Shown here: in pieces, positions 1 through 16,376 of the stretch | How positions within the stretch are numbered: position 1 is the stretch's first letter | Layout of the letters: each line of letters begins with the position of its first letter | Assembly (NCBI GenBank): GCA_947497295.1 | Contig: CANMFU010000001.1 | Location: forward strand, 1,054,001-1,118,000 | Direction of reading: 5' to 3' | Source: an uncultured Roseovarius sp. | GTDB lineage: Bacteria > Pseudomonadota > Alphaproteobacteria > Rhodobacterales > Rhodobacteraceae | DNA length: 64,000 nt | Position numbers and translations under genes: made by a program | Notes under the pieces: model-generated | The model's input: only the letters and a program-made list of their open reading frames with translations | What the model was told of the DNA's origin: nothing | Database searches by the model: none

Positions 1-223
1 TTGATGTCATCACCGTGCGCACGGCGCGGTCAGACACCCGGCCCAGATCGGACAGAAGGCGGATCACCAGATCGCGGTCCGTCAGAATTCCAACAGGCAT
101 GCCGTCCTTGCAGACGGGCAGCGCGCCGATATCGCGGTCGGCCATCAGCGCCGCTGCCGCCCGAATGGAGGTGCTGGGCCCGATGACTGTGACGCGCGTC
201 TGCATAATCTGACTGACCAACAT
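1..223 (-). CDS. CBS-domain protein, C-terminus cut by window edge
   Basis: About 74 residues are visible, starting MLVSQIMQTRVTVIGPSTSI. This is the usual beginning of a CBS domain, followed by the LMADRDIGALPVCKDG and GILTDRDLV stretches typical of CBS repeats. CBS pairs generally bind adenosine nucleotides and act as energy-state sensors; that is family knowledge, and the ligand here is unknown. The ATG at 221-223 is preceded by a strong AAGGAGG ribosome binding site. The gene lies 49 nt downstream of atpG on the same strand, so it probably belongs to the arc-atp transcription unit. The second CBS half and any fused domain lie outside the window. Confidence 0.85.
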   Translation of the reverse strand, partial: MLVSQIMQTRVTVIGPSTSIRAAAALMADRDIGALPVCKDGMPVGILTDRDLVIRLLSDLGRVSDRAVRTVMTS

Positions 224-272
224 AGTCCCTCCTTGCATGGCCGTGCGCTGAATTGATGTCGTCCGCGGCATG

Positions 273-1181
273 CTAATGGTCTTGTCCTTCTTTACGCTTT
301 TGCCGCTTTGCGCGGCCTTTCAGCGCCTCGAATCCGGTGATGACATCCAGTAATTCTGTCGTGATCTCGCTTTGACGCACCGATCGGGTTTCCGCCTTCA
401 ATTCTTCCAAATTTTCGTCCACTGACTGTTCGGCCTGCTGCATGCGCGCAAGGCGCGCGGCGTTTTCTGTCACCAGCGCCTCGGCGGCGGCGCGGTAGAG
501 CGTGGCAAAAACCAGATTGCGGACCAGCGCCGCCAGCATGTCCTGCGGCGGCATCGGAACCTGCGGCAGGCTGCGCGACTCCCACGGCTGGTGCGCCAGC
601 GCCGCCAGCATTTCGGGGTCAAGCGGCAGCAGCGCCTGCGCTACCGGCGCGTGGGTGCCATGGGCGCCGCGCTGGGTGTAAATCAGCGCCGCCGCCAGAT
701 CGCCGGTCCGCGAGCGTGCCCGCATCTGGTCCAGCCGCGTGACCAGCTGGCCCGCCAGCCGGATCAACCCATCCGTGTTGGCAGGCGGCAAAAGCGTGAC
801 AGCAGGCGTAATCCCCTCGCCGTCCAGCGCATCCTGCATCTGCGCGCCGACGCAGATGATCTGCGCGATGGCTGCAAACGGGTGACGCCCCACTTCGCGC
901 GCCAGCAATTCGTTGTAGTTGCCGCACAGGCCATGATCCGAGCCCATCACGATCAGCACGCGCTGCGGGTTCTCCGCCCGGCCCTGTTCCAGCGCGCCGT
1001 GGCAGCGCAGGAACGCGTGCAGCCCGTCCAGCACCGTATCGCGCCAGACGTCTATCGCCTCGGCGGCGCGCTCGTACGGGGCGGCGTTGATGGCCGACAT
1101 CGTCTTCATCGTGCGGACGATGCTGCGGATACTTTGCATCGTGTCCGTGCGCCGGGTCAGCCGCTCAAGCGTCTGGGCCAT
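273..1181 (-). CDS. atpG: N-ATPase gamma subunit
   Basis: Central rotor stalk of a rotary ATPase, linking the alpha3beta3 head to the c-ring. The 302-residue product begins [18 protein letters not shown], followed by the conserved [15 protein letters not shown] coiled-coil helix, and ends with the matching long C-terminal helix ([15 protein letters not shown]). The start at 1181 was chosen because AGGGAGG lies 6 nt upstream; upstream in-frame codons lack a site and would add residues not seen in the family. It overlaps the end of atpA by 17 nt. It is the last subunit gene of the atpDCQRBEFAG order that defines N-ATPases. Confidence 0.93.
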
Positions 1182-2673
1182 GGCCTGCCTCCCTGAGTGC
1201 GGCGCCTGCGGCATCGATGATGCGGGTACGATCAGCATCTTGCAGACCTGCGCCAGAAGCGACGAGGTCCGCCGTCAGACTGTCATTTGCCCGGATCTCT
1301 TGACGGATCGCGTCCATCGCAGCGGCGGTTTCGCCCTCGCTCAGATCGTCCAGCAGCCCGTCCATTGCGGCCAGCAGGATGGCCAGCTGCGCGTCTGCCG
1401 CCATCGGATCACGCTCGGGCTGGCGCAGGGCGGCGCGCACGGCGGCGCCGCGCGCCAGCCGCGCGCGGGTGTCCTCGTCCAGCCGGGTGCCAAAGCGTGC
1501 GAACTCCTCCAGCTCCTCAAATTGCGACAGGGTCACGCGCAGGTTGCCCGCCACCTCGCGGAACGCGCGCGCCTGCGCCTTACCGCCGACGCGGCTGACC
1601 GACACGCCCAGGTCGACGGCCGGGAACTGGTTGCGCCGCACCAGCCGCGGCGACAGGTAGATCTGCCCGTCGGTGATCGAAATCAGGTTCGTCGGGATAT
1701 AGGCCGACAGGTTTTCCGCCTGCGTCTCAACCACCGGCAGCGCGGTGATGGACCCGCCCCCGGCATGATCGGCAAACTGCCCGGCCCGCTCCAGTAGGCG
1801 GGCATGTACGTAAAAGATATCGCCCGGAAACGCTTCGCGCCCCGGCGGGCGGCGCAAGAGCAGCGACAGCTCGCGATAGGAATGGGCGTGATGTGTCAGA
1901 TCGTCGAGGATTAGAACCACATCGCTGCCATCGCTGGCCAGTTCCTCCGCCATCGACATGGCGGCGTAAGGCGCGACATAGCTGAGGCCAGGCGCCTCTT
2001 CGTCGCCGGCGGCGATGATGATGGTGCGCTCTATCATTCCGCCATCGCGGATCGCGCCGATCACCTTGGCTACCGCATCGCCGCGCTGGCCAATCGCGCA
2101 ATAGACGCACAACACGCCGGTATTTTTCTGGTTCAGAATCGTGTCGACCGCGATTGAGGTCTTGCCGGTTTGGCGGTCCCCGATGATCAGCTCGCGCTGG
2201 CCCAGCCCGACCGGCACGGCGGCGTCTATCGCCTTCAGCCCCGTCGCCAGCGGACGAGCCACCGGCGCGCGGCTGAGGATATCGGGCGCCTCCATCTCAA
2301 TCGGGCGGGTCTTGCCGGTGTCCAGCAGCGCGCCACCGTCACGCGGGCGACCCAGCGCATCAACCGTGCGGCCCAAGAGCGCGCGGCCCACCGGCACCGC
2401 CACCACCCGGCCCGTCCGGCGTACATCGCTGCCCGGCACCACATGGCCCGCCTGCCCCAGCAGAACCACGCCCAATTGCTCCTCTTCCAGATCGAACACC
2501 ACGCCCATCAGGCCCGCGCCGAAATCCAGCATCTCATCCACCAGCGCGCGGGCAAGACCGGTGACAATGGCGATGCCGTCGCCAACCTCGCTCACCTGCC
2601 CGATCTCGCTGAGTTCGGGTTCGGGCGCGGGCGCGTCCAGCAGGGTTTGCAGCAGGGTCATGTCATGCGGCAT
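1165..2673 (-). CDS. atpA: N-ATPase alpha subunit
   Basis: Non-catalytic nucleotide-binding subunit of the N1 head (about 502 aa). The Walker A motif GDRQTGKT is at residues 165-172, the beta-barrel domain precedes it, and [29 protein letters not shown] is the conserved central segment (here quoted only to identify it: key words ILDDLT and RPPGREA). The ATG at 2673 overlaps the end of atpF by 11 nt; a second in-frame ATG four codons later (2661) is also possible. The N-terminus is short compared with ordinary F-type alpha chains, which need a longer N-terminus to dock the delta subunit. That fits the absence of a delta gene from this operon. Confidence 0.93.
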
Positions 2674-3421
2674 CCGGCACCCCGCGCGCCTTGTGCGCGT
2701 CCTCCAGTATGGCTTGCAGCCCGTCTGTATAGCTGGCCACGGTCCAGCCCAGCTGTGCGCCACCGACGCGCAGGCTGAGGCCCGGCGATTGCGCCGTGTC
2801 AGTTTCAAACTGCACGTCAATGTGCGGCAATGCCTCGCGTATTTGCTGCGCCAGCTGTTTTTGCAGCGCTTCGGGCAAGGCGTCTTGCGTGGTCACGATG
2901 GCCTCATGGCTTGCCCCTGCCGCCTCGGCCAGATCGCCTGCCATGGCGGGCAGGCGTCCGGCGGCGCGGGCGACGATGCGTTCCTCCAGGGTTTCGCCCG
3001 CCAGATCATTCAGCGCCTTGCGCAGCAGCGCCACCAGCGCCGAGGCGCCGCGCAACTCCAGGTCGGCGGCAAAGCGGCGCGCCTCGTCCTTTCGCGCCGC
3101 CTCGCGCGCGGCCTGCTCGGCTTCCAGCCGCTCGCGTGCGCCGGACAGAAGCGCATCACGCTCGGCCTCGGCCTCATCGCGGACCTCGGCCAGCACGCCT
3201 TCGCGGCCCGCCTTCAGGCGGGCAATCTCGGCCTCGTGGCGCGCCTCGGCCTCCTCGGCTTGCGCGCGGATGCCCGCGGCCTCGCTCATGCGCTGGGTGA
3301 TCTGCGCCTCGCGCGCGTCAATCCCGTCCAGAATGGGCCGGTAGAGAAACCGCCTGAGCAGCCAGACCAGCACCAGAAAGTTGGCGATCTGCGCGGCAAC
3401 CGTGATCCAGTCGATCGACAT
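2663..3421 (-). CDS. atpF: N-ATPase b subunit (peripheral stalk)
   Basis: The 252-residue product has one N-terminal membrane helix ([20 protein letters not shown]), a long charged coiled coil rich in Ala, Glu and Arg (residues about 30-160), and a C-terminal globular part. Ordinary b subunits are about 160 aa. The extra C-terminal region resembles the delta-like extension known for N-ATPase b subunits and may replace the missing delta subunit; that role is inferred from the family. It lies between atpE (2-nt gap) and atpA (11-nt overlap), so translation is probably coupled. Confidence 0.9.
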
Positions 3422-3423
3422 TT

Positions 3424-3720
3424 TCAGCTACCTGCCCCGGCCTGAACCGCCTCAAGCGCGGCGTTCCAGAACGGGTTGGCAAACAGCAGGATCATCGCGA
3501 CGACGAAACAGTAGATGGCGGTGGATTCGATCATCGCAAGGCTGACAAACAGCGTGCGCGACAAGGTGGCGCCCGCGTCAGGCTGCTGCGCGATGGCGCT
3601 GAGGGCGGCGGCCGCCGCGCGCCCCTCGCCCAAGGCAGGGCCAAGCGCGCCGAAGGCAACGGTCAGCCCGGCGGTAAAGATCGACACCGAGGCGATGATG
3701 GCAAGATAGAGTTCGGTCAT
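3424..3720 (-). CDS. atpE: N-ATPase c subunit (rotor ring), two-carboxylate type
   Basis: A 98-residue hairpin of two membrane helices. The ion-binding residues can be read directly: Glu65-Ser66-Thr67 and Tyr70 in helix 2, and Glu32 in helix 1 (GPALGEGRAA). These positions coincide with the Ilyobacter Na+-binding set Gln32/Glu65/Ser66/Thr67/Tyr70, but Gln32 is replaced by Glu. The set of ligands argues for Na+ capability. However, the related Burkholderia N-ATPase ring was reported to be H+-specific, so the coupling ion cannot be settled from sequence. The gene overlaps atpB by 4 nt (ATGA). Confidence 0.94.
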   Translation of the reverse strand: MTELYLAIIASVSIFTAGLTVAFGALGPALGEGRAAAAALSAIAQQPDAGATLSRTLFVSLAMIESTAIYCFVVAMILLFANPFWNAALEAVQAGAGS

Positions 3721-4409
3721 GTCTGCTCCTTTGCAGTGGGTGCATCCGGCGCTGCGGTGGCCGATGAGATGTAAACGGTGGCCAGAATGGCAAAGATATA
3801 GGCCTGAATGACCCCGGTCAGCAGGCCCAGCATGTCCATCACGACCGGGAAGAAAAACGGCGCGACACCCAGAAGGATCGCAGCGATCACCGCGCCGCTC
3901 ATTACGTTGCCATAAAGGCGGATCGCCAGCGATATGCCGCGCGATGCCTCGCCGATGATGTTGAAGGGCAGCATGATGATATTCGGCTCCATGTAGCTGT
4001 GCAGATAACCGCCCAGCCCCCGACTGCCGATGCCGAACAGCGGCACCGCGACAAGCACCGCCAGCGCAAGGCCGGCCGTGGTGGATAGCGACGCGGTCGG
4101 CGCCTGCCAGCCAGGCACAATGGCCAGCATGTTGGACGTGATGATGAACAAAAACAGCGTGCCCGAGAAATACAGCAGGCGACGGTCGGGCTGCGCGCTG
4201 ATCTCATCGATCTGCCCCTGAATGGTCAGCACGATCGCCTCCAGCACCGTGCGCCAGCGGTTGGGCGGCACATCGGGGCGCAGGTTCCATGTGATGATCA
4301 TCGAGGCACCCGTCAGGATCGCCATCACCGCCCAGGTAAAGACGATGGTGGCATTCACGCCATAGCCTGCGATGGTAAACAGGATCATCTCGTCAGGGGT
4401 CAATTGCAT
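3717..4409 (-). CDS. atpB: N-ATPase a subunit (ion channel stator)
   Basis: A multi-pass membrane protein of 230 aa that carries the ion half-channels next to the c-ring. The essential stator arginine is in the conserved LAIRLYGNVMSG segment of the penultimate helices. The start at 4409 (MQLTPDEMILF) is supported by GGAGGGAGG upstream, and the reading frame overlaps the end of atpR by 17 nt. The order R-B-E is that of N-ATPase operons rather than the B-E-F-H-A-G-D-C order of ordinary F-ATPases. Confidence 0.92.
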   Translation of the reverse strand: MQLTPDEMILFTIAGYGVNATIVFTWAVMAILTGASMIITWNLRPDVPPNRWRTVLEAIVLTIQGQIDEISAQPDRRLLYFSGTLFLFIITSNMLAIVPGWQAPTASLSTTAGLALAVLVAVPLFGIGSRGLGGYLHSYMEPNIIMLPFNIIGEASRGISLAIRLYGNVMSGAVIAAILLGVAPFFFPVVMDMLGLLTGVIQAYIFAILATVYISSATAAPDAPTAKEQT

Positions 4410-4704
4410 GCCGGCCTCCCTCCATGTCGTTCGGGCGCATCGCTGCCACAAGGAAGAAGCGCACGATCATAAATGCGGCGGCAAATCCCACCAGCGCGGC
4501 CACGCCCAGTTGCGCAATGCCCCAGCCCGCCGCCAGCAGCAGCGCGATACGGATGGCCGACGACGCCAGCAGGATGGACCCGGCCCGGCGGCGCTGCAGC
4601 GCCAGCCGTACCCCCCAGGCAAGCCCCGCAAAATAAAGCGCGCCTGCGCCGGTCCCCGCCATCAGACCCAGCGCGAACGCGGTCCAATCCACATCCCAGA
4701 TCAT
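4393..4704 (-). CDS. atpR: N-ATPase accessory membrane protein AtpR
   Basis: A 103-residue protein with three predicted membrane helices (about residues 7-30, 42-62 and 65-88). Its position between atpQ and atpB and the charged residues inside helices (for example Arg45, Arg51 and Arg81) match AtpR, a subunit found only in N-ATPase operons and proposed to help assemble the c-ring. The assignment rests mainly on synteny and topology. It overlaps atpQ by 4 nt and atpB by 17 nt. Confidence 0.85.
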   Translation of the reverse strand: MIWDVDWTAFALGLMAGTGAGALYFAGLAWGVRLALQRRRAGSILLASSAIRIALLLAAGWGIAQLGVAALVGFAAAFMIVRFFLVAAMRPNDMEGGRHAIDP

Positions 4705-4978
4705 TCGCCCTTCTCCTTTTCAATCCACGCCCAGGCGAGCGCCGCGCCAATGACAACCCCGCCAAGGATCAGCGCGATGGTCCACGAAAAATCCTGCGGA
4801 TAGGCCCGGTCCAGCCAGAGGCCCAGAAACGTACCCGCAACGGTCGGCACGGCGACGGACCAGCCGATCACCCCAAAGACGCCGATGCCGCGCAGCGGGC
4901 TGGGGCCGGGATTATCCCGCGCCGCTTGCTTGCGCGCGGCGCTGCGGCCAATCGGGCCGGTATCCTTGCGTTTTTCGC

Positions 4979-4982
<4 letters not shown>
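4701..4982 (-). CDS. atpQ: N-ATPase AtpQ (AtpI-like small membrane protein)
   Basis: A 93-residue protein with a basic cytoplasmic N-terminus (residues 1-30) and two membrane helices: about 33-53 (GVFGVIGWSVAVPTVAGTF) and 66-86. The GxWLDR turn after helix 1 is the signature of the AtpI / F0F1-ATPase gene 1 family. In N-ATPase operons this position is called AtpQ; proposed roles are assembly of the rotor ring or Mg2+ handling. It overlaps both neighbours by 4 nt, which implies coupled translation. Confidence 0.87.
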
Positions 4983-6792
<1,810 letters not shown>

Positions 6793-6816
6793 TCAGCCCG
6801 CTGACAGATCGTAATA

Positions 6817-6827
6817 GGAACGGTTCC
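6817..6827. promoter_or_regulatory. 11-bp palindrome in the arcC-atpD gap
   Basis: GGAACGGTTCC is a perfect inverted repeat of five bases around one central base, placed 28 nt before the atpD start. It is too tight to form a stable hairpin, so if it is functional it would be a protein site. It may be chance. No regulator can be assigned. Confidence 0.25.
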
Positions 6828-6853
6828 GCGCGCATTGAAGCCTTGGAGAAATG

Positions 6854-7777
6854 TCATGCCGCGTCTCCCTTGCATGCCTGAATTCTGGTCCCGGCCTGCC
6901 CGGCCAGGATCTGCGCCGCCCCGGCCAGCCGTCCGATGCCAGCCATGCCGCCGCTACCTGCGAACTGGACAGCTGCCGCAACCTTGGGCTGCATTGAGCC
7001 TGCGGGCAAGTCCAGTTTCAAGGCATCCTCGGGGTTGATATCGCCGATCTCAGCCTGCTTATCGGTGCCGAAATCCGTCATAACGGCAGGCACATCCGTC
7101 AGCAAAAGCAGCGCATCGGCGCCCAGCTCCTGCGCCAGAAGGGCGCTGGCGGCGTCCTTGTCGATCACCGCCTCGATGCCCGACAGGCTACCATCCTTGC
7201 CGCGCAGGACGGGGATGCCGCCGCCGCCGGTGCAGATGACGATGACGTTTTGATCCAGCAGCAGTTTCAGCACGCGGATATCGGGGATTTCCATCGGCTT
7301 TGGCGACGCCACGACGCGGCGCCATTTGTCGCCGTCCTGTGCGATGGTCCAGCCTGCCGCCCTGGCGCGCGCCTCGGCCTCTTCGCGCGCGTACACCGGG
7401 CCGATGAACTTGGTCGGGTTCTGAAATGCCGGGTCGGTGGCATCGACCACCACCTGCGTCAGCAGCGTGGCGACCGGGCGGGAATGATCCAGCACATTTT
7501 CCAGCTCCTGCTCGATCATGTAGCCGATCATGCCGCCGGTTTCAGCCCCCAAAACGTCCAGCGGATAGGCCTCGTCAGGTTTGTAGGCCGCGCCTTGCAG
7601 CGCCAGCAGCCCGACCTGCGGGCCGTTGCCGTGGGTGATGACCAGATCATGGCCCGCGCGCACGATTTCGGCCAGCGACGTGGCGGCAATGCGCGCATTT
7701 GCGCGCTGGTTTTCGGCCGTCAAAGGCTGTCCGCGTTCCAGCAACGCATTGCCGCCAAGGGCTGCAACGACCAGCAT
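6854..7777 (-). CDS. arcC: Carbamate kinase
   Basis: Last step of the arginine deiminase pathway: carbamoyl phosphate + ADP gives ATP + NH3 + CO2. The 307-residue product has the ALGGNALL N-terminus, the GNGPQVG motif at residues 50-56 and the GGGGIPV segment of the amino-acid-kinase fold. It follows arcB by 3 nt and precedes the N-ATPase genes. It therefore makes ATP, the substrate of the pump encoded next to it, without respiration. Confidence 0.96.
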
Positions 7778-7780
7778 AGT

Positions 7781-8782
7781 CTAGCCCCCCAATGTGGCGA
7801 CAAGGACCGCCTTGATCGTGTGCATCCGGTTTTCGGCCTGATCGAACACGATGGACGCGGGGCTTTCAAAAACCTCCTCGGTAACCTCCATCGCCTCAAT
7901 GCCGAACTGGCCCTCAATATCTTTGCCAACATCAGTGTCGGTGTTGTGGAAGGCCGGCAGGCAATGCATGAATTTGGCGCGCGGATTGCCCGTTTTCCCC
8001 ATGACGCCCGCATTGACCTGATAGGGCATCAATAGCTCGATCCGCTCGGCCCATTTGTCCTTGCTCTCGCCCATCGACACCCAGACGTCGGTATAGACGA
8101 AATCGACGCCTTTTACGGCCTCATCCACATCTTCCGTAATAACGATGCGCGCGCCGGTTTCTTCCGCAACTTTATGCGCCTCATCCTGAATCGCCTGCTC
8201 GGGCCAAAGCGATTTGGGCGCGCAGAGGCGCACATCCATGCCCATCTTGGCCCCGCCGATCAGCAGGCTGTCGCCCATGTTGTTGCCCGCATCCCCCATG
8301 AAGCAATACGCGACCTCGCGAAGCGGTTTTTCGCCGTGTTCCTGCATTGTCAGGAAGTCGGCCAGAATTTGCGTTGGGTGAAATTCGTCCGTCAGTCCAT
8401 TATAGACCGGCACGCCGGACCATTCTGCCAGCTCCTCGACGATTTTCTGGCCAAAGCCGCGATATTCGATCGCATCATACACCCGGCCCAGAACGCGCGC
8501 GGTGTCCTTGACCGTTTCCTTGCCGCCGATATGGGTGCCGGAGGGGCCAAGATAGGTGACCGTCGCGCCCTGATCATGCGCCGCCACCTCGAACCCGACG
8601 CGCGTGCGCGTGCTGTCCTTCTCGAAGATCAGCGCGATTTCCTTGCCTTTCAGAGTCTCGACCTCGGTGCCGGCGTATTTGGCGGATTTGAGGTCTGCGG
8701 ACAGCTTCAGCAGAAACCCGATTTCAGCAGGGGTAAAGTCGCGCAGGGTCAGGAAGCTGCGGTTTTTCAGGTTGAAAGCCAT
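7781..8782 (-). CDS. arcB: Catabolic ornithine carbamoyltransferase
   Basis: Converts citrulline + phosphate to ornithine + carbamoyl phosphate. The 333-aa product has the carbamoyl phosphate motif STRTR at residues 57-61, FHPTQ in the middle and HCLPAF near residue 270. The length and the placement between arcA and arcC indicate the catabolic enzyme rather than biosynthetic ArgF. The ATG is preceded by AAAGGAGTT. The gap to arcA is 14 nt. Confidence 0.95.
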
Positions 8783-8796
8783 TTCGGTAACTCCTT

Positions 8797-10026
8797 TTAA
8801 ACCGCATCACGGATGGTCGGGCAGGACATGCAGCGGCTGCCGCCCCTGCCCCGGCCCAGCTCGGCGCCCGGCATTTCGATCACGTCTATGCCTTCCGCGC
8901 GCAGCGCGGCATTGGTGTCATCATTGCGGTCGTAGCCCATCACCACACCGGGGCGCAGCGCCAGCACGTTGTTGCCGTCGTTCCACTGCTCGCGCGATTG
9001 CTCGAACGGGTTGTCGCCGCCGGTATCGACGACGTTCAATTTCTTGAAGGCCATTACATCGGCCACAACGTCGAACATCGGGCGTTTGTCGTGGCGCATA
9101 TCCAAGGGCTTGCCGCCCTCGCCGGGATGTAGATCATAGCAGGTCATCTCATCGGCCACGTCCTTGAAGCTGGTGACAACGTCGCCGCCGCAAAAGGTGA
9201 ACACCGTGTCCAGATGCATCGCGGCGCGTGATTTGGGCATCTGGCAGGCAATGACACGTTCCGCCCGGCCCTGCTCAAACAGCGCCTGCGCCAGAAGGCC
9301 CACGGCTTGGGGTGATGTGCGCTCGCCCATGCCGACCAGAACGACGCCGTTGCCGACCGGCATCTGGTCGCCGCCCTCCAGCGTGGCAAGGCCGTAATCC
9401 TTGAGCGGATCGCCCCAGATCACCTCGACCTGTCCCTTGAATTTGGGATGGTAATTATAGATCGCGGCGGTCAGCAGCGTTTCAGGCCTGCGCGCCTGCC
9501 AATACATCGGGTTCAGCGTGACGCCGCCATAGATCCAGGCCGAATTGTCGCGGGTAAACAGGAAGTTGGGCAAGGGCGGCAGGATAAAGCCATGCTTGCC
9601 CAGATAGGCACCGAACATGCCGGTCGCCTCGAACGGCACATCGTTCACGGTCAGCCCGCCGATCAGCCATTTCGACAGCTCCGTGCCGGGCAGCGCATCC
9701 ATCCACTCGCGCAGCTCGCGGCGCATGCCGACGCCAACATGAATGGCGGCAATGCGGTGGTCCAGAACCCATTTGCGCGCCTCGGGGATTTCCATCGTCT
9801 CGGCCAGCAACGCGCCGGTTTCCAACACCTCGACGCCCTCATCGGTCATCGCCTGGGCAAAGGCATCGTGGTCCTTCTGGCCCTGCTTGACCCAGAACAC
9901 ATCGTCAAACAGCAGATCCTCGCAATTGTCCGGTGTCAGGCGGCGATGGGCCAGACCGGGACGGCAGATGATCACCTGACGCAGTTTGCCGGACTCAGAA
10001 TGAACGCCAAGCTTATGATCGGTCAT
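8797..10026 (-). CDS. arcA: Arginine deiminase
   Basis: Hydrolyses arginine to citrulline and ammonia. The 409-aa product has the N-terminal [12 protein letters not shown], the FTRDNSAWI segment, HLDTVFTF with the catalytic His/Asp region, and the nucleophile Cys399 in SRCMSCP close to the C-terminus, corresponding to Cys406 of the Pseudomonas enzyme. All catalytic landmarks are present. It is second in the arc operon, 15 nt after the transporter gene. Confidence 0.96.
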
Positions 10027-10041
10027 GGTATTTTCCTTGTC

Positions 10042-11490
10042 TCAGAGAATGGCGGCGATGCTGATCGCCACCGTGATCAGAATGGTGAGCAGCACCAGCA
10101 GCGGCCAGATAAAGGCCAGCCAGCGGTCATAGGATACGCGGCCAATCGCCAGCCCGCCGATCACCACTGCAAAGGTCGGGTTGATCAGGTTCACAAGGCC
10201 GTTGGCCGACTGATAGGCTGTCACCACCAGATCGCGGCCCACATCCGCAAAATCCGCCAGCGGCGCGAGGATGGGCATCGACAGGACTGCAAGGCCCGAC
10301 GATGACGGCACGAGAAAGCTCATCCCCGCCTCGATCCAGAACATCAGGTTGATAAAGGCCAACTCGCCCACGCCGGCCAAAGTCTGCTCGGCGCTGTGCA
10401 GGATGGTGTCGGCGATCATGCCCTGCTCCATGATGACAACGATGCCGCGCGCCAGTCCGATGACCAGCGCCACGCCCAGAAGGTCGCGCGCGCCGTCGAC
10501 GAAACTGCCGGTCAGGCGCTTCTCGCCCATGCGGGCGATCACGCCGGTGACAATGGCGGCGCCCAGAAACAGCGCGCCCATTCGGGCCATCCACCAGCCC
10601 TGACTGGCCACACCCCAGATCATCACGGCAAAGGTCGCCGCAAAGAGGATCAGCACCAGTTTTTGCGTGCCGGACAGCACGTCATCCACCTCGCCCTCCT
10701 TGGCGGCCTGAAGGAACAGACGTTTGTGCGCCTCGGCCTGATGCGCCACGACCGAGCAGGACGGATCGGCCTTGACCCGTTTGGCATAGCGCATGACGTA
10801 GGCCGCGCAGAGGGCAAGGCCCGCGACCAGCAGGATCAGTCGCAGCACGATACCGTCGGTAAAGGGGATGCCTGCCGCATCGGACGCAATGACCGTTGCA
10901 AATGGATTGATCGTCGACCCCAGAACGCCAATGCCGGCGCCAATCAGTATGACCGCGACACCAGTGACGGCGTCATAGCCTGCGGCGATCATCACGGGGA
11001 TCAAAATGGCATAAAACGCCAGTGTTTCCTCGGCCATGCCGTAAGTCGTGCCGCCAAGCGCAAAGACCGCCATCAGGATCGGAATCATCCAGATCTCGCG
11101 CCCTTTCATGCGGGTCATGGCTGCCCTGATGCCGGTATCAACGGCGCCCGTGGCGTTCACGACACCCAGAAAACCGCCCAAAAACAGCACGAACAGCGCA
11201 ACGTCGATCGCGTTGGCGGAATAGCTGTCGGGATCATAGAACCCGGCAATAGGCGCCAGCATCACATCGACAAAGCCCTGCGGATTGCGCTCGACCAGCG
11301 CGTAACTGCCTGCAACGGCAACTTCACGATCCAAAGCGGCATCCATCACACGTTCGTATTGGCCGGCGGGGATGATCCACGTCAGTGCTGCGATCAGGAT
11401 GATCAACGCAGAGAGGATCGTGTAGGCCGTCGGAAAACGCGACTCGAGCGCTTGTTCGTCGTCAGGCGGCAGGTTGGAATCCAAGGGCAT
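10042..11490 (-). CDS. YfcC-family antiporter, probable arginine/ornithine exchanger
   Basis: A 482-aa integral membrane protein with about 12 helices and the family segments WIIPAGQY, GGTTYGMAEETLAFY and LVPSSSGLAVLSMPI. YfcC/DcuC-like carriers are annotated as C4-dicarboxylate carriers, but members inside arginine deiminase operons are usually taken to exchange arginine for ornithine (the ArcD role). That substrate is inferred from context. It is the first gene of the run. Its ATG has AAGGAAG 8 nt upstream, and the region before it is shared with the divergent baeRF gene. Confidence 0.85.
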   Translation of the reverse strand: MPLDSNLPPDDEQALESRFPTAYTILSALIILIAALTWIIPAGQYERVMDAALDREVAVAGSYALVERNPQGFVDVMLAPIAGFYDPDSYSANAIDVALFVLFLGGFLGVVNATGAVDTGIRAAMTRMKGREIWMIPILMAVFALGGTTYGMAEETLAFYAILIPVMIAAGYDAVTGVAVILIGAGIGVLGSTINPFATVIASDAAGIPFTDGIVLRLILLVAGLALCAAYVMRYAKRVKADPSCSVVAHQAEAHKRLFLQAAKEGEVDDVLSGTQKLVLILFAATFAVMIWGVASQGWWMARMGALFLGAAIVTGVIARMGEKRLTGSFVDGARDLLGVALVIGLARGIVVIMEQGMIADTILHSAEQTLAGVGELAFINLMFWIEAGMSFLVPSSSGLAVLSMPILAPLADFADVGRDLVVTAYQSANGLVNLINPTFAVVIGGLAIGRVSYDRWLAFIWPLLVLLTILITVAISIAAIL

Positions 11491-11612
11491 GGTGCAAGCT
11501 TCCTTTCGCGATTCGTGGCGCTCTGGAACACGGCGTTACATCCCCGCAAGGGTCAAAACAGGGGCTGTGCCAGTGACGACCATCAACCTGCGACGGGGGA
11601 ATTTTCTTATCA

Positions 11613-11626
11613 TTAACATGGGTCAA
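11613..11626. promoter_or_regulatory. FNR-like box between the arc-atp operon and the baeRF gene
   Basis: TTAACATGGGTCAA matches the FNR/CRP-fold pattern TTGAY-N4-RTCAA with one deviation in the left arm. Its centre lies 129 nt from the arc-operon start codon and 124 nt from the baeRF start. For the plus strand, a TAGGTA hexamer at 11649-11654 would place the site at -41.5, the standard activating position. No convincing -10 was found at the matching place on the minus strand. Anaerobic control of arginine deiminase operons by FNR-type proteins is well known; control here is inferred. Confidence 0.5.
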
Positions 11627-11743
11627 TGGCGCCGGGCCGGGCAGCGCATAGGTATGGACATGCCCGCGCGCTTGCGATGCTGCCCAATTTCGGGGCTGCG
11701 TTGCAGTCTGCGTGTCTCGGCCGGCAATTCAGGAGACTTCCAA

Positions 11744-12862
11744 GTGCTATACATTGAGACCCCGACGCTGAAACAAATCAGTGCGCTGACGCAGACACGC
11801 TCGGATGCGTGTGTATCAATCTACCTCAAGACGACGCCTCTGACCCATGACATTGGCCGGGCTCGCACCAACCTTGGCAATCTGACGCGCACCGCCATCG
11901 GTCAGCTGGAAGAGGCCGGGCTGCCCAAGCGGCGGATCTGGCTGCTGGAGGAACATCTGGGCATCCTGATGGAGGATGACGATTTCTGGGAACATCAGGC
12001 CAGCAGTCTTGCCATTCTGGTTACGCCGGAGCGAATACAGACCTTTCGCCTCGCCAATGAATTGCATGATATGGTCGAGGTTTCGGACCGTTTCCATCTC
12101 AAACCACTGCTGCGCGCGGCAACCTTTGCACATGTCGCGTATGTTCTGGCCGTTTCGGAAAATGACGTGCGTCTGGTCGAAATGTCGGCAGACATGCCTG
12201 CGCGCGAAATCAGGGTGCCGAACATGCCAAAGGATGCGGCCAGCGCCGTGGGCAAGAAATCCATCAACGAGTCGGGTTCAGGCCGCCGCATTCAGGGGCT
12301 TGAGGGGCAGAAGGTGCGCCTTGGACAATACATCCGCAAGATCGACGCGGCGCTGCGCCCAATCCTGAAAGGCACAGACACGCCCGTTATTCTGGCCTCG
12401 ACCCTGCCGGTCGATGCGCTGTTCCGGTCGCTGACAGCGCTGCCGCTGCTGCCGCAAACTATTGAGACCAGCCCCGACCAGCTAAGCCCGGCTGAGTTGG
12501 CCGAAGCAGCGCGTCCGGTGCTGGATGCGCAGTATGAAAGCCAGATCAAGGAGTTCCACGACCTGTTTGACCAGCGCCGCGGCCAGAACCGCACCACAAC
12601 GGACGTATCGGATGCCGCGCGCGCATCTACCTTTGGCGGCATCGACACCCTGCTGGTGGATTTCGATTCCGTGACAATCGGCACCGTCGATGACGAAACC
12701 GGCGCTGTGGCGTTTGCGGAGCAGGAAAGCGCGTCCAGCTATGGCATCATTGACGAAATCGCAGGACGCGCCATGCGCAGCGGCGCGCGTGTCATGGCGG
12801 TCCGCAAGGCCGATATTCCGGGCGACAAGGATCTGGCTGCGATCCTGCGCTATTCGATTTGA
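11744..12862 (+). CDS. baeRF-family protein (bacterial eRF1-like)
   Basis: A 372-aa soluble protein. The order of segments (ACVSIYLKT near the start, a middle region with LLEEHLGILMEDDDFWEHQ and LAILVTPERI, then YVLAVSENDVRLVEM, and a C-terminal part with GIDTLLVDFDSV) resembles the bacterial homologues of archaeo-eukaryotic release factor eRF1. These are proposed to act in ribosome rescue or stress survival, but their function is not established. The GTG at 11744 was chosen because AGGAGA lies 7 nt upstream; the frame stays open further upstream but without a site. It is divergent from the arc-atp operon and followed by a clean terminator. Confidence 0.75.
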   Translation: MLYIETPTLKQISALTQTRSDACVSIYLKTTPLTHDIGRARTNLGNLTRTAIGQLEEAGLPKRRIWLLEEHLGILMEDDDFWEHQASSLAILVTPERIQTFRLANELHDMVEVSDRFHLKPLLRAATFAHVAYVLAVSENDVRLVEMSADMPAREIRVPNMPKDAASAVGKKSINESGSGRRIQGLEGQKVRLGQYIRKIDAALRPILKGTDTPVILASTLPVDALFRSLTALPLLPQTIETSPDQLSPAELAEAARPVLDAQYESQIKEFHDLFDQRRGQNRTTTDVSDAARASTFGGIDTLLVDFDSVTIGTVDDETGAVAFAEQESASSYGIIDEIAGRAMRSGARVMAVRKADIPGDKDLAAILRYSI

Positions 12863-12884
12863 GGCGAGCAAAAACAATGATTTT

Positions 12885-12912
12885 GGGCGGTCACAGCGGG
12901 CCGCCCTTTTTT
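12885..12912 (+). terminator. Rho-independent terminator of the baeRF gene
   Basis: A GGGCGG/CCGCCC stem with a 10-nt loop is followed by six T residues, beginning 22 nt after the stop codon. It isolates the baeRF gene as a single-gene transcript. Confidence 0.85.
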
Positions 12913-12964
12913 GCGGCTACGCTACCGCCGACCCTTCAGCATGAAGTATTTTGCGCGGATCAAG

Positions 12965-13000
12965 GTTCGCAATGTGCAGCACCTGCAAAATTGCGCGAAC
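12965..13000. repeat. Nested inverted repeat in the 283-nt gap after the baeRF gene
   Basis: The outer arms GTTCGCAAT and ATTGCGCGAAC (one extra base pair position bulged) enclose a perfect inner hairpin TGCAG-CAC-CTGCA. No T-tract follows on either strand, so it is not an ordinary terminator. The rest of the gap (12913-13145) shows only a weak CAGCCCC/GGGGCTG hairpin near 13100 and no credible gene. Confidence 0.45.
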
Positions 13001-13145
13001 TGATGCGGCCGACCACGACAGACGCATAGTTGCGGGCGCGCTGCGGGCCTAAACACTACCGTTCCCGGAACCACCAAGTGTAGCCAGCCAGCCTTACGTC
13101 CAGCCCCGCCTTTGGGGGCTGAACGACAGTTTCAACCTGAGCGGA

Positions 13146-14252
13146 TCAACCCATCATACCGCCAGCCTCGCCCAAGCTGTCATAATGCCGTTTGAGGCGT
13201 TGCAGTGCGATCCGCAGGACGATCTTGCCGGACCGCGCTGACCAGCCCATGCGCTGCTCCGCACGCTCCAGCCCCTCAAGATGGCAGCAGCAGCGCAGGG
13301 CGATATCGCCAAGTCCTGGACCTAGATCATGCAGCGCGCCCTCGACCCGGCGACGCGCCGCCTCGAACCCGCGGGCATGGCCGCCGGTGCCGCCGCCACC
13401 GCCCGGTGTGGTCAGAAAGCGGCTCCAGTCCTGAGTGACGCGCGGACCCATTTGTGACAGCTCGAAATCCTCGCGCAGACGCTCGCCGGCGCGGACCAGA
13501 TCATTTGGGATAAACTGCGCACCGTCGCGTCCCTTGCGGCGCGCAAGCGCAATCAGCGGGCTTTCTGCAACGCTATAGCGCGGGCGTTTCGGCGCCTCTT
13601 CATCGGTTGCGTTCGTTCCCGCCGCTACAAACGGTGCCTGCGCATCGGTAAATCCGGAGGCTAAATTTTCAGCTTCAGCCAGCATCGCGGATAAAGTGGC
13701 GCGGCCAACCTTGGTGATGTGATACCGCGCTACGCGCCCCGGCGCATCGCATGCGATCCAGCCTTTTAGCGCCATCGCCTCGGCCACAGGTCTGTCAACG
13801 ACAGCTGTGCGTGTCGGATCGCCCTCGTCGCCGTCGCGCACGACCACAGCCTTGTCCATCTGCGCCGCAACGGCCAGAACCGCGCCCTGTTCGCACAGGC
13901 GGCGCAGGATTCGCAGCGCCTGGGCGCGCAACTGGGCTTCGGTCACTTCGGTGACGTTATCTTTGATGGTCGTGGACGTCATGGCAGTCTCCTGATGATT
14001 GGAGCCGGCCTTTTCTCGCGGAGCGACGCGGCATCCGAGACGGCGCAACGCCTCATCGACCATCGGATCGTCACGGCGGGCCTCGTATGCGCGGATCCGG
14101 CGCAGCACCGTTGAGGCATGACAGCCGCTGGCCCGTGCCAGGGCCCGTATGGACGAGCCCTGTTCGGTATGGGCGAGATATAGCATCGCCCCCTGCGGCA
14201 CCCAGGACGGCATAATGCGCGCGCCGCTGGCGTCTGTTCCCCGATCCAACAT
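13146..14252 (-). CDS. DUF6456 helix-turn-helix protein
   Basis: A 368-aa protein. The N-terminal 60 residues hold a helix-turn-helix (SSIRALARASGCHASTVLRR). A middle winged-helix-like section (about 100-190) contains AEAMALKGWIACD and YHITKVGRATL. The C-terminal section (about 225-368) matches DUF6456 as I recall it (PLIALARRKG, ERLREDFELSQMG, then a cysteine-rich IALRCCCHLEGLERAEQRMGW). It is probably a DNA-binding regulator, but targets are unknown. The ATG at 14252 was chosen over a GTG two codons earlier because AAGGG is correctly spaced only for the ATG. It is divergent from the DUF6477 gene. Confidence 0.7.
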   Translation of the reverse strand: MLDRGTDASGARIMPSWVPQGAMLYLAHTEQGSSIRALARASGCHASTVLRRIRAYEARRDDPMVDEALRRLGCRVAPREKAGSNHQETAMTSTTIKDNVTEVTEAQLRAQALRILRRLCEQGAVLAVAAQMDKAVVVRDGDEGDPTRTAVVDRPVAEAMALKGWIACDAPGRVARYHITKVGRATLSAMLAEAENLASGFTDAQAPFVAAGTNATDEEAPKRPRYSVAESPLIALARRKGRDGAQFIPNDLVRAGERLREDFELSQMGPRVTQDWSRFLTTPGGGGGTGGHARGFEAARRRVEGALHDLGPGLGDIALRCCCHLEGLERAEQRMGWSARSGKIVLRIALQRLKRHYDSLGEAGGMMG

Positions 14253-14831: not shown

Positions 14832-16376
14832 TCAGACGAAGGCGTCAGGCATTGACGCCTTCTTTTTTGCGACAAATTCGTCCAGCGCATCGGTGATGCC
14901 CTGGTCCAGCGAGGGGCGCTGATAGGTGTCCAGCATCCGGTGCATCCGCAGGTTAGCCAGTGTCATGGTATCGCGCGCACCCTCCTCGTCCCATGTCTCG
15001 AACGGTTTGTAATCCAGCAGCTCGGTGCGCCAGAACGCATCCTTGAAATTGGCCTGCGTATGGGCGCAGCCCAGGTAATGTCCGCCCGGCCCGACCTCGC
15101 GGATGGCATCCATCGCCTGCCCGTTCTCGTCATGGCTCACGCCTCGCGCCATGTTGTGCAGAACGCCCAGCTGGTCGGCATCCATCACGAATTTCTCAAA
15201 GCCCGCGACCAATCCGCCCTCCAGCCAGCCGCAGCTATGCAGCATGAAATTGACGCCGCCCATCAGCACCGCATTCAGCGTATGCGCCGATTCGTAGGCC
15301 GCCTGCGCATCTGGCAGTTTCGATCCACACAGCGCCCCACCCGACCGAAAGGGCAGGTTCATCCGCCGCGCCAGTTGCCCCGCGCCATAGAGGATATGGC
15401 TGGCCTCGGGCGTGCCGAAGGTGGGCGCGCCCGAGTTCATGTCGATCGACGTCACGAACGCCCCAAAGATCACCGGCGCACCGGGGCGGATCAGCTGGCT
15501 GTAGGCGACACCGGCCAGCACTTCGGCCAGAACCTGCGTCAGCGTGCCAATCACCGAAACCGGCGCCATCGCGCCCCCCACGATGAAGGGCGAGATGATG
15601 CACGCCTGATTGTTGGCGGCATACACCTCCAGCGCGCCCATCATCACATCGTCAAACGTCAGCGGCGAGTTGACGTTGATCAGCGACGTCATCACCGTAT
15701 TGTCCTGTACGAACTGCTCGCCGAACAGGATCCCGCACATATCCACGCTGTCCTGCGCACGGCTAGGATCGGTGACGGATCCCATGAAGGGTTTATCTGA
15801 CAGCGTCATATGGGCGTGGAGCATATCCAGATGCCGCTTGTTCACCGGAATATCTGTCGGCTCGCACACCGTGCCGCCCGACATGTGCAGCCATTTGGAC
15901 ATATAGCCCAGCTTCACGAATTTGCGGAAATCGTCCATCGTCGCGTAACGCCGCCCGCCTTCCATGTCGCGCACGAAGGGGGGGCCGTAAACCGGGGCGG
16001 TGACCAGTGTATTGCCGCCGATCTCGACGTTGCGTTCGGGATTGCGGGCGTGCTGGGTATAGCGGCTGGGCGCGGTCTCGCACAGCTTGCGGGCAAGCCC
16101 GCGGGGGATGCGCACGCGCTCGCCGTCGATCTCGGCGCCGGCCTCGCGCCAGCGCTCCAGCGCCTTGGGGTTGTCGACGACGTTGACGCCGATCTCGGCC
16201 AGAACCGTCTCGGCGTTTGCCTCGATGATCTCCAGCGCCTCTTCGCTCAGCATGTTGTAGACAGGGATATTGCGCTCAATGTATTTGGCCGTGTCCATGC
16301 TGACAGCCGTACGTTCGGCCCGGCGTGCTGCGCCGCCGCCACCCCGTGCGCGCCGTGGCGCCTCAACTTCTGCCAT
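14832..16376 (-). CDS. MttB-family corrinoid-dependent methyltransferase, no pyrrolysine
   Basis: A 514-aa protein of the trimethylamine methyltransferase superfamily, with GYMSKWLHMSGGTVCEPTDI, the TIM-barrel core and the GPGGHYLGCAHTQANF segment. The frame runs without an internal TAG, so no pyrrolysine is used. Such members act on quaternary amines (for example glycine betaine or related substrates) rather than trimethylamine; the substrate here is unknown. No corrinoid protein or MtbA-like partner is encoded nearby. The N-terminus is basic and glycine-rich (residues 1-25), and a shorter start at the internal MDTAKYIERN is possible. Confidence 0.85.
   Translation of the reverse strand: MAEVEAPRRARGGGGAARRAERTAVSMDTAKYIERNIPVYNMLSEEALEIIEANAETVLAEIGVNVVDNPKALERWREAGAEIDGERVRIPRGLARKLCETAPSRYTQHARNPERNVEIGGNTLVTAPVYGPPFVRDMEGGRRYATMDDFRKFVKLGYMSKWLHMSGGTVCEPTDIPVNKRHLDMLHAHMTLSDKPFMGSVTDPSRAQDSVDMCGILFGEQFVQDNTVMTSLINVNSPLTFDDVMMGALEVYAANNQACIISPFIVGGAMAPVSVIGTLTQVLAEVLAGVAYSQLIRPGAPVIFGAFVTSIDMNSGAPTFGTPEASHILYGAGQLARRMNLPFRSGGALCGSKLPDAQAAYESAHTLNAVLMGGVNFMLHSCGWLEGGLVAGFEKFVMDADQLGVLHNMARGVSHDENGQAMDAIREVGPGGHYLGCAHTQANFKDAFWRTELLDYKPFETWDEEGARDTMTLANLRMHRMLDTYQRPSLDQGITDALDEFVAKKKASMPDAFV
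14838..14868 (+). terminator. Rho-independent terminator inside the end of the convergent methyltransferase gene
   Basis: GAAGGCGTC-N7-GACGCCTTC followed by TTTTTT is a textbook terminator for the plus-strand DUF6477 transcript. It is antisense to the last dozen codons of the MttB-family gene (the KKKASMPDAF end), so the two functions share the same bases. Confidence 0.85.

Follow-up and report, generated by a model that had tools for sequence, protein, structure and literature searches.

The window analysed here, a stretch of 64,000 nucleotides (nt) from an uncultured Roseovarius sp. (assembly GCA_947497295.1, contig CANMFU010000001.1, positions 1,054,001 to 1,118,000), carries at positions 2-11490 of its minus strand the gene series yfcC-arcA-arcB-arcC-atpDCQRBEFAG-CBS, in which an arginine deiminase (arc) gene set is followed by the genes of an N-ATPase, a second rotary ATPase present alongside the canonical F-ATPase, and in which every frame is open. 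We propose, with a probability of about two in three, that this locus is a conserved energy operon under oxygen control, in which ATP from substrate-level phosphorylation would drive Na+ export at low oxygen.

Gene content of the locus

Family searches assigned the following features, listed in the direction of transcription:

10042..11490, minus strand: yfcC, carrier of the DcuC/YfcC family (PF03606, E 1e-117)
8797..10026, minus strand: arcA, arginine deiminase (PF02274, E 7e-118; PRK01388, 555.6 bits, above the cut-off of 414)
7781..8782, minus strand: arcB, ornithine carbamoyltransferase (PF00185, PF02729; TIGR00658, 419.8 bits, above the cut-off of 280.85)
6854..7777, minus strand: arcC, carbamate kinase (TIGR00746, 377.1 bits, cut-off 358.25; PRK12354, 445 bits, cut-off 361)
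6790..6853, minus strand: arcC-atpD junction of 64 nt, with no terminator-like site and no FNR-like box
5383..6789, minus strand: atpD, N-ATPase beta (TIGR03305, alternate F1F0 beta, 716.4 bits, cut-off 752; canonical TIGR01039, 567.8 bits)
4979..5386, minus strand: atpC, N-ATPase epsilon (PF02823; TIGR03166, 96.7 bits, cut-off 100.1)
4701..4982, minus strand: atpQ (TIGR02230, 92.3 bits, above the cut-off of 46.7)
4393..4704, minus strand: atpR, N-ATPase signature gene (PF12966, 39.9 bits, above the cut-off of 26)
3717..4409, minus strand: atpB, subunit a (TIGR03306 altF1_A, 286.4 bits, cut-off 302.1)
3424..3720, minus strand: atpE, subunit c (TIGR03322, 143.2 bits, above the cut-off of 130.85)
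2663..3421, minus strand: atpF, subunit b, 252 aa with a long C-terminal extension (PF00430 over residues 8-136 only)
1165..2661, minus strand: atpA, N-ATPase alpha (PF00006, PF00306, PF02874)
273..1181, minus strand: atpG, gamma (PF00231, E 2e-44)
2..271, minus strand: accessory CBS-domain gene, truncated at the edge of the window (PF00571, two stretches)

These searches bear out the gene set and the single strand given by the initial annotation. It had also put the CBS gene within 273..11490 and the spacings at 3-64 nt or overlaps; the CBS gene exists but lies outside that range, and overlaps (4-17 nt) as well as a maximum of 64 nt, at arcC-atpD, are found, while the smallest gaps are 1 nt (atpF-atpA and atpG-CBS, with start codons as chosen; the atpE-atpF gap is 2 nt). 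The arginine deiminase pathway is represented by open frames for ArcA, ArcB and ArcC with a carrier gene alongside. ArcA scores 477.1 bits against TIGR01078, slightly below the cut-off of 489.1, and YfcC, probably an arginine/ornithine antiporter, reaches 294.8 bits against PRK11588 ('putative basic amino acid antiporter YfcC'), below the cut-off of 500.

Adjacency of arc and N-ATPase genes across genera

Among the best 80 of 321 ArcA relatives found, 41 loci had an N-ATPase, whole or cut by a contig end, in the flank, and these fell into three arrangements: arcABC followed by the N-ATPase (arc>N, 34 loci, with the L003 pair cut by a contig end), divergent (6) and N-ATPase followed by arc (N>arc, 1). 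The paired loci come from mostly marine bacteria and include Rhodobacterales of many genera, Martelella, Cohaesibacter, a Kiloniellaceae bacterium and ten Marinobacter. Litorivita pollutaquae and Jannaschia rubra are among the culturable carriers of the fusion. Two loci were counted as lacking an N-ATPase, namely L015, which shares a contig with L179 and whose N-ATPase lies beyond the flank, and L066, where fragmented atpA/atpG frames of a decayed N-ATPase (L066:4521-6219) lie upstream of an intact yfcC-arcABC.

In a family sample of 295 genomes from 294 genera, independent of the ArcA-fetched loci, 57 genomes held an N-ATPase, 37 held arcA and 21 held both, against about 7.1 expected (Fisher p 4e-8, not corrected for kinship). 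In 11 of these 21 genomes N-ATPase and arcA were no more than 20 kb apart, and in ten of them no more than 12 kb. Because none of the 57 genomes had its canonical F-ATPase within 20 kb of arcA, the adjacency is more than chance. A synteny survey, which the initial annotation had named as a check, thus finds the pairing across many genera and in three arrangements, and the 41 of 80 ArcA loci together with the family-sample coordinates, set against those of the canonical F-ATPase, rule out an accident of one strain.

An AtpD tree was built by a quick method, with a long-branch warning, from 128 N-ATPase loci plus an outgroup, in a set biased by the 80 loci fetched by ArcA and with loci of identical AtpD merged. 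All 37 arc>N loci of this set fell into one N-ATPase clade of 50 (clade A; SH-aLRT 100), the rest of which comprised six loci with acetate kinase (ackA) or phosphotransacetylase (pta) nearby, one with arcC alone and six with neither. The six divergent pairings lay in its sister clade of 16, and four N>arc pairings in a distant N-ATPase clade; three of these four, not L071, also carried a distant ArcA lineage. In the ArcA tree, likewise made by a quick method, the arc>N loci were spread over three lineages of 15, 12 and 10. Since the arc>N and divergent N-ATPase clades are sisters, the trees point to at least two arc/N-ATPase associations; three or more are more likely because the orientations differ. 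The arc>N fusion may have arisen once, with losses, or several times, as the trees do not separate gain from loss.

The arcC-atpD junction

The junction between arcC and atpD spans at most 100 nt in 24 of the 37 arc>N loci, and in eight of the 37 the two frames overlap by 4 nt, as called by a small custom gene finder whose choice of start codons sets these overlaps in the relatives (in L174, which is among the eight, the start codon is TTG). Translational coupling would be expected from such overlaps. In the window, the initial annotation had reported no terminator between arcC and atpD, and our search likewise found no terminator-like site on the minus strand of the 64-nt gap; a sigma-70 promoter scan of window positions 1-14000 gave one site, against a mean of 3.0 in shuffled sequence, and was given no weight. 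Judged by sequence, arc and N-ATPase genes look like one operon.

Two loci carry arcC beside an N-ATPase in genomes in which no arcA was matched. At L182:5715-6656 a full-length arcC overlaps the start of atpD, and may be the leftover of a lost arc operon or may be fed by another source of carbamoyl phosphate. At L214, yfcC and arcC lie beside another N-ATPase, in a genome where a search at E 1e-50 gave no arcA; both frames are short (194 and 240 aa) and may be a remnant, so that we give this locus little weight.

FNR-like boxes upstream of yfcC and of separate atpD genes

Matches to the FNR-like consensus TTGAT-N4-ATCAA with at most one mismatch were counted in the intergenic regions of the fetched loci. 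Of the 41 intergenics before yfcC, 11 carried such a box (1.14 sites per kb), as did 19 of the 62 before an atpD that does not follow arcC (1.03 per kb). At the same loci a box was present in 37 of the 576 remaining upstream intergenics (0.36 per kb) and, between convergent genes, in 2 of 109 (0.09 per kb); densities are given per kb because the control intergenics are shorter on average (189 versus 257-297 nt). Boxes are thus about three times denser before yfcC, and before atpD lacking arcC, than in other upstream regions. Seven of the 41 yfcC-upstream intergenics are shared with a divergent atpD, and the boxed loci include the near-identical L203, L204 and L207. None of the four arcC-atpD gaps long enough for the test contained a box, nor did the window's own 64-nt gap. 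This pattern fits a single low-oxygen promoter before yfcC where the two gene sets are fused, and a promoter of its own before atpD where they are separate. Matches upstream of arcA (55 of 90 at up to two mismatches, none at up to one) were discarded as evidence, that region being mostly yfcC coding sequence.

Upstream of yfcC, the window holds two candidate sites, each weak alone:

11613..11626, minus strand: candidate Crp/Fnr-type dyad TTGACCCATGTTAA, 3 mismatches
11573..11586, minus strand: second candidate dyad TTGATGGTCGTCAC, 2 mismatches

In a MAFFT alignment of this poorly conserved region, TTGACCCATGTTAA aligns with TTGATCCAGATCAA of L003 and TTGATCGGGGTTAA of L002.

A perfect FNR-like box precedes atpD of the arc-less clade-A N-ATPase at L189, and the genes upstream of that N-ATPase (L189:3439-6393) resemble what we take to be ubiT, ubiU and ubiV, of oxygen-independent ubiquinone synthesis. 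In Dinoroseobacter shibae, F0F1 clusters are described as repressed through FnrL and DnrD (PMC5398030), which would fit a separate anoxic ATPase and is silent on the N-type.

With its many genera, three arrangements, tight or overlapping junctions and FNR-like boxes, the comparison supports the single functional module proposed by the initial annotation; the core of that interpretation is probably right, and the pairing is probably a real emergency energy module.

N-ATPase type and predicted Na+ specificity

The gene order atpDCQRBEFAG, with atpR, marks the window's enzyme as an N-ATPase, and no atpH (delta) frame lies between atpF and atpA, which are 1 nt apart. AtpD scores 149 bits higher on TIGR03305 than on TIGR01039, yet stays below the curated cut-off of TIGR03305; in the tree rooted with canonical AtpD it groups with the alternate type. 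The same genome also encodes a canonical F-ATPase: its alpha and beta, which share 43% and 48% identity with their N-type counterparts, lie at G000:C1:192-195 kb, and a canonical subunit a lies at C2:125115.

In principle a rotary ATPase can run in either direction, so the N-ATPase might be a Na+-driven ATP synthase for which arc is merely a second source of ATP. We hold this to be very improbable: canonical F-ATPase subunit a is present in all 57 family genomes that hold an N-ATPase, and N-ATPases are presumed in PMC11738941 to be ATP-driven pumps.

The window's subunit c has a glutamate in helix 1 and the Na+ motif ESTAIY in helix 2. In the alignment, the helix-1 glutamate and ESTxxY of helix 2 are found in 50 of 50 clade-A c-subunits, 48 of them with the exact strings [GA]EGR and ESTAIY; c-subunits of the four N>arc loci have ETTxxY instead. 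ESTxxY is named in PMC9927469 as a motif of Na+-specific c-subunits, and section 5 of PMC11738941 gives a rule that ties Na+ specificity to the complete motif; because the motif is complete here, the enzyme is predicted to be Na+ specific. Predictions of this kind can fail, as for the Burkholderia N-ATPase, which an earlier study had predicted to be Na+ selective and which behaved as proton specific (PMC5376962).

That proton-specific enzyme is one argument for a quite different role, in which ammonia from ArcA and proton export by the N-ATPase would together counter acid. Another is the DUF308/HdeD-family gene that lies between arcC and atpD in 7 of the 37 arc>N loci and on plasmid pRA02, where it is annotated 'HdeD family acid-resistance protein'. 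Such a gene is, however, missing from most arcC-atpD junctions, the Burkholderia enzyme lacks ESTxxY according to PMC9927469, and the clade-A c-subunits are without exception predicted to be Na+ specific, which leaves a pH module with only a slight chance of being right.

In five loci of the divergent type (L019, L023, L027, L029 and L031), a gene of the Na+/H+ exchanger family (PF00999 for the L023 copy) lies inside the N-ATPase operon, between atpQ and the gene for subunit a.

Proposed mechanism and evidence against it

In the energy operon that we propose, falling oxygen would lead a Crp/Fnr-family regulator to activate a promoter upstream of yfcC, as the boxes suggest. YfcC would import arginine, probably in exchange for ornithine as its family indicates, and ArcA, ArcB and ArcC, all encoded here, would convert it by the established pathway to ornithine, CO2, two ammonia and one ATP. 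The N-ATPase, presumably made from the same transcript, would spend that ATP on exporting Na+, and so maintain an ion gradient, along with transport powered by it, during a halt in respiration. The canonical F-ATPase would remain a separate locus, and the N-ATPase could exchange its ATP supplier, arc or acetate kinase/phosphotransacetylase.

Several observations weigh against this reading. Most N-ATPases have no arc neighbour, and 39 of the 80 ArcA loci, some on short contigs, have no N-ATPase in the flank. AtpR was matched in 30 of 385 class-sample genomes (one of them, G321, with no N-ATPase genes at its match), full-length arcA occurred in only two of the 30, and only the window's own genome has it adjacent; arcA was found in one of 13 further phylum genomes, 200 kb from the N-ATPase. 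Neither kinase module lies within 10 kb of 33 of the 58 family-sample N-ATPase loci (3 unclassified), and 34 of the 41 class and phylum loci lack a kinase partner (5 unclassified). The arcC-atpD gap exceeds 300 nt in 11 of the 37 arc>N loci, each with one or two same-strand genes inserted, of DUF308/HdeD type in seven and/or a frame of 255-258 aa. The boxes are not specific, as 6 of 17 phaC-upstream regions have one at up to one mismatch, and those of the window itself are imperfect, with 2 and 3 mismatches. A general tie of N-ATPases to arc was therefore rejected, the pairing being a minority trait in the class and phylum samples. The frames of 255-258 aa match FabI weakly in two cases, and on a Roseovarius plasmid that lacks an N-ATPase, arcC is followed by a gene with the annotation SDR oxidoreductase.

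In place of arc genes, or besides them, the partner is sometimes acetate kinase/phosphotransacetylase. The 58 family-sample loci include ten beside arcABC, one with arcC alone and 11 with ackA and/or pta; the class and phylum loci add one with arcC and one with ackA and pta. The gene ackA, present in 53 of the 57 N-ATPase genomes, lies within 12 kb of 10 of the 58 N-ATPase loci and of none of the 57 canonical ones; both counts are unchanged within 20 kb. The calls at L130, L133, L150 and L188 denote pta without ackA in the stretch, the L130 pta being 40% identical to the reference; unclassified loci (L144, L179 and L181 in the family, L192, L201, L210, L215 and L217 in class and phylum) lack a full AtpD call. 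We tentatively extend the idea, at less than even odds, to the N-ATPases of these Proteobacteria in general: they could be dedicated consumers of substrate-level ATP. Under this 'kinase plus ion pump' principle, controlled by oxygen, a second rotary ATPase, separate from oxidative phosphorylation, would be coupled both physically and in its regulation to carbamate kinase (arc) or to acetate kinase (Pta-Ack).

Alternatively, arc and N-ATPase could be low-oxygen cassettes that share regulation within one mobile island, together with PTA-AckA, PhaC, FabI, CBS and Crp/Fnr genes, neither needing the other. The same island genes indeed recur around N-ATPases with and without arc. One stretch (L179) combines arc, Crp, CBS, PhaC, Pta, AckA and N-ATPase genes on both strands, and L187, which lacks arc, is flanked as the window's locus is, by baeRF on one side and by CBS, Crp and genes presumably of Mla type on the other. 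The boxes before phaC and carriage on a plasmid point the same way: pRA02 of Roseicitreum antarcticum, typed as conjugative, holds yfcC-arcABC-hdeD-N-ATPase and no CBS gene. Against this, 8 of the 37 loci show the 4-nt overlap and the order arcC>atpD is constant, which exceeds what an island needs; the pairing also occurs in different clades and orientations. We regard the shared island as a serious but unlikely explanation, and favour the energy operon.

The CBS gene, complete in L087:9807-10271 (154 aa, two CBS stretches), follows the operon within about 1.4 kb in 11 of the 50 clade-A loci, or in 12 if a weaker match in L184 is counted; no Marinobacter locus is among them. The suggestion that its product sets the pump was dropped as far as a core regulator is concerned, since the gene is found in a minority of relatives. 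Past the CBS gene lies a Crp/Fnr-family gene in the opposite direction.

Relation to known systems

Arginine deiminase operons of the Pseudomonas type have the order arcDABC, with the carrier gene first and anaerobic-regulator boxes upstream. The window shares the order of ArcA, ArcB and ArcC and the leading carrier, has imperfect candidate boxes upstream, and differs in that its carrier belongs to the YfcC/DcuC family and that a nine-gene rotary ATPase is appended. Streptococci and other fermenters have an F1F0-ATPase beside the arginine deiminase pathway, and ATP from arginine can drive ion pumping there, as we propose here; theirs, however, is a housekeeping enzyme outside the arc operon, in contrast to the second, horizontally spread ATPase of the window.

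N-ATPases, of which ProAD contains 1807 (PMC11738941), are characterized by their own gene order, AtpQ/AtpR, the lack of a separate delta gene, a canonical F-ATPase alongside and a Na+ or H+ motif in subunit c (PMC5376962, PMC9927469, PMC11738941, PMC4154653, PMC8620254). All of these traits, with the c-subunit motif of the Na+ kind, are present in the window; whereas those sources, as far as they go, describe N-ATPases alone or with other neighbours, this one forms the distal half of an arc operon. Mobile arginine deiminase genes are known in Rhodobacterales from Tn6097 of Paracoccus, for which the text of PMC3925955 at hand mentions no ATPase. In openly licensed literature on N-ATPases we found no mention of an arc/N-ATPase fusion, though an earlier mention may exist; the parts are known, and the combination is one for which we found no description in that literature.

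The cellular functions of N-ATPases have been called largely unexplored (PMC5376962), a question on which the link to two substrate-level phosphorylation systems, in separate N-ATPase clades, bears. If true, the 'kinase plus ion pump' principle would account for the presence of two rotary ATPases in many cells, and the module might be what carries respiring marine bacteria through brief anoxia.

Neighbouring genes

A baeRF-family gene (window 11744-12862, plus strand) is divergent from yfcC, and relatives of it lie near N-ATPases in L003, L173, L186 and L187. Further along, at 14832-16376 on the minus strand, the window encodes a homologue of the MttB family of trimethylamine methyltransferases (PF06253).

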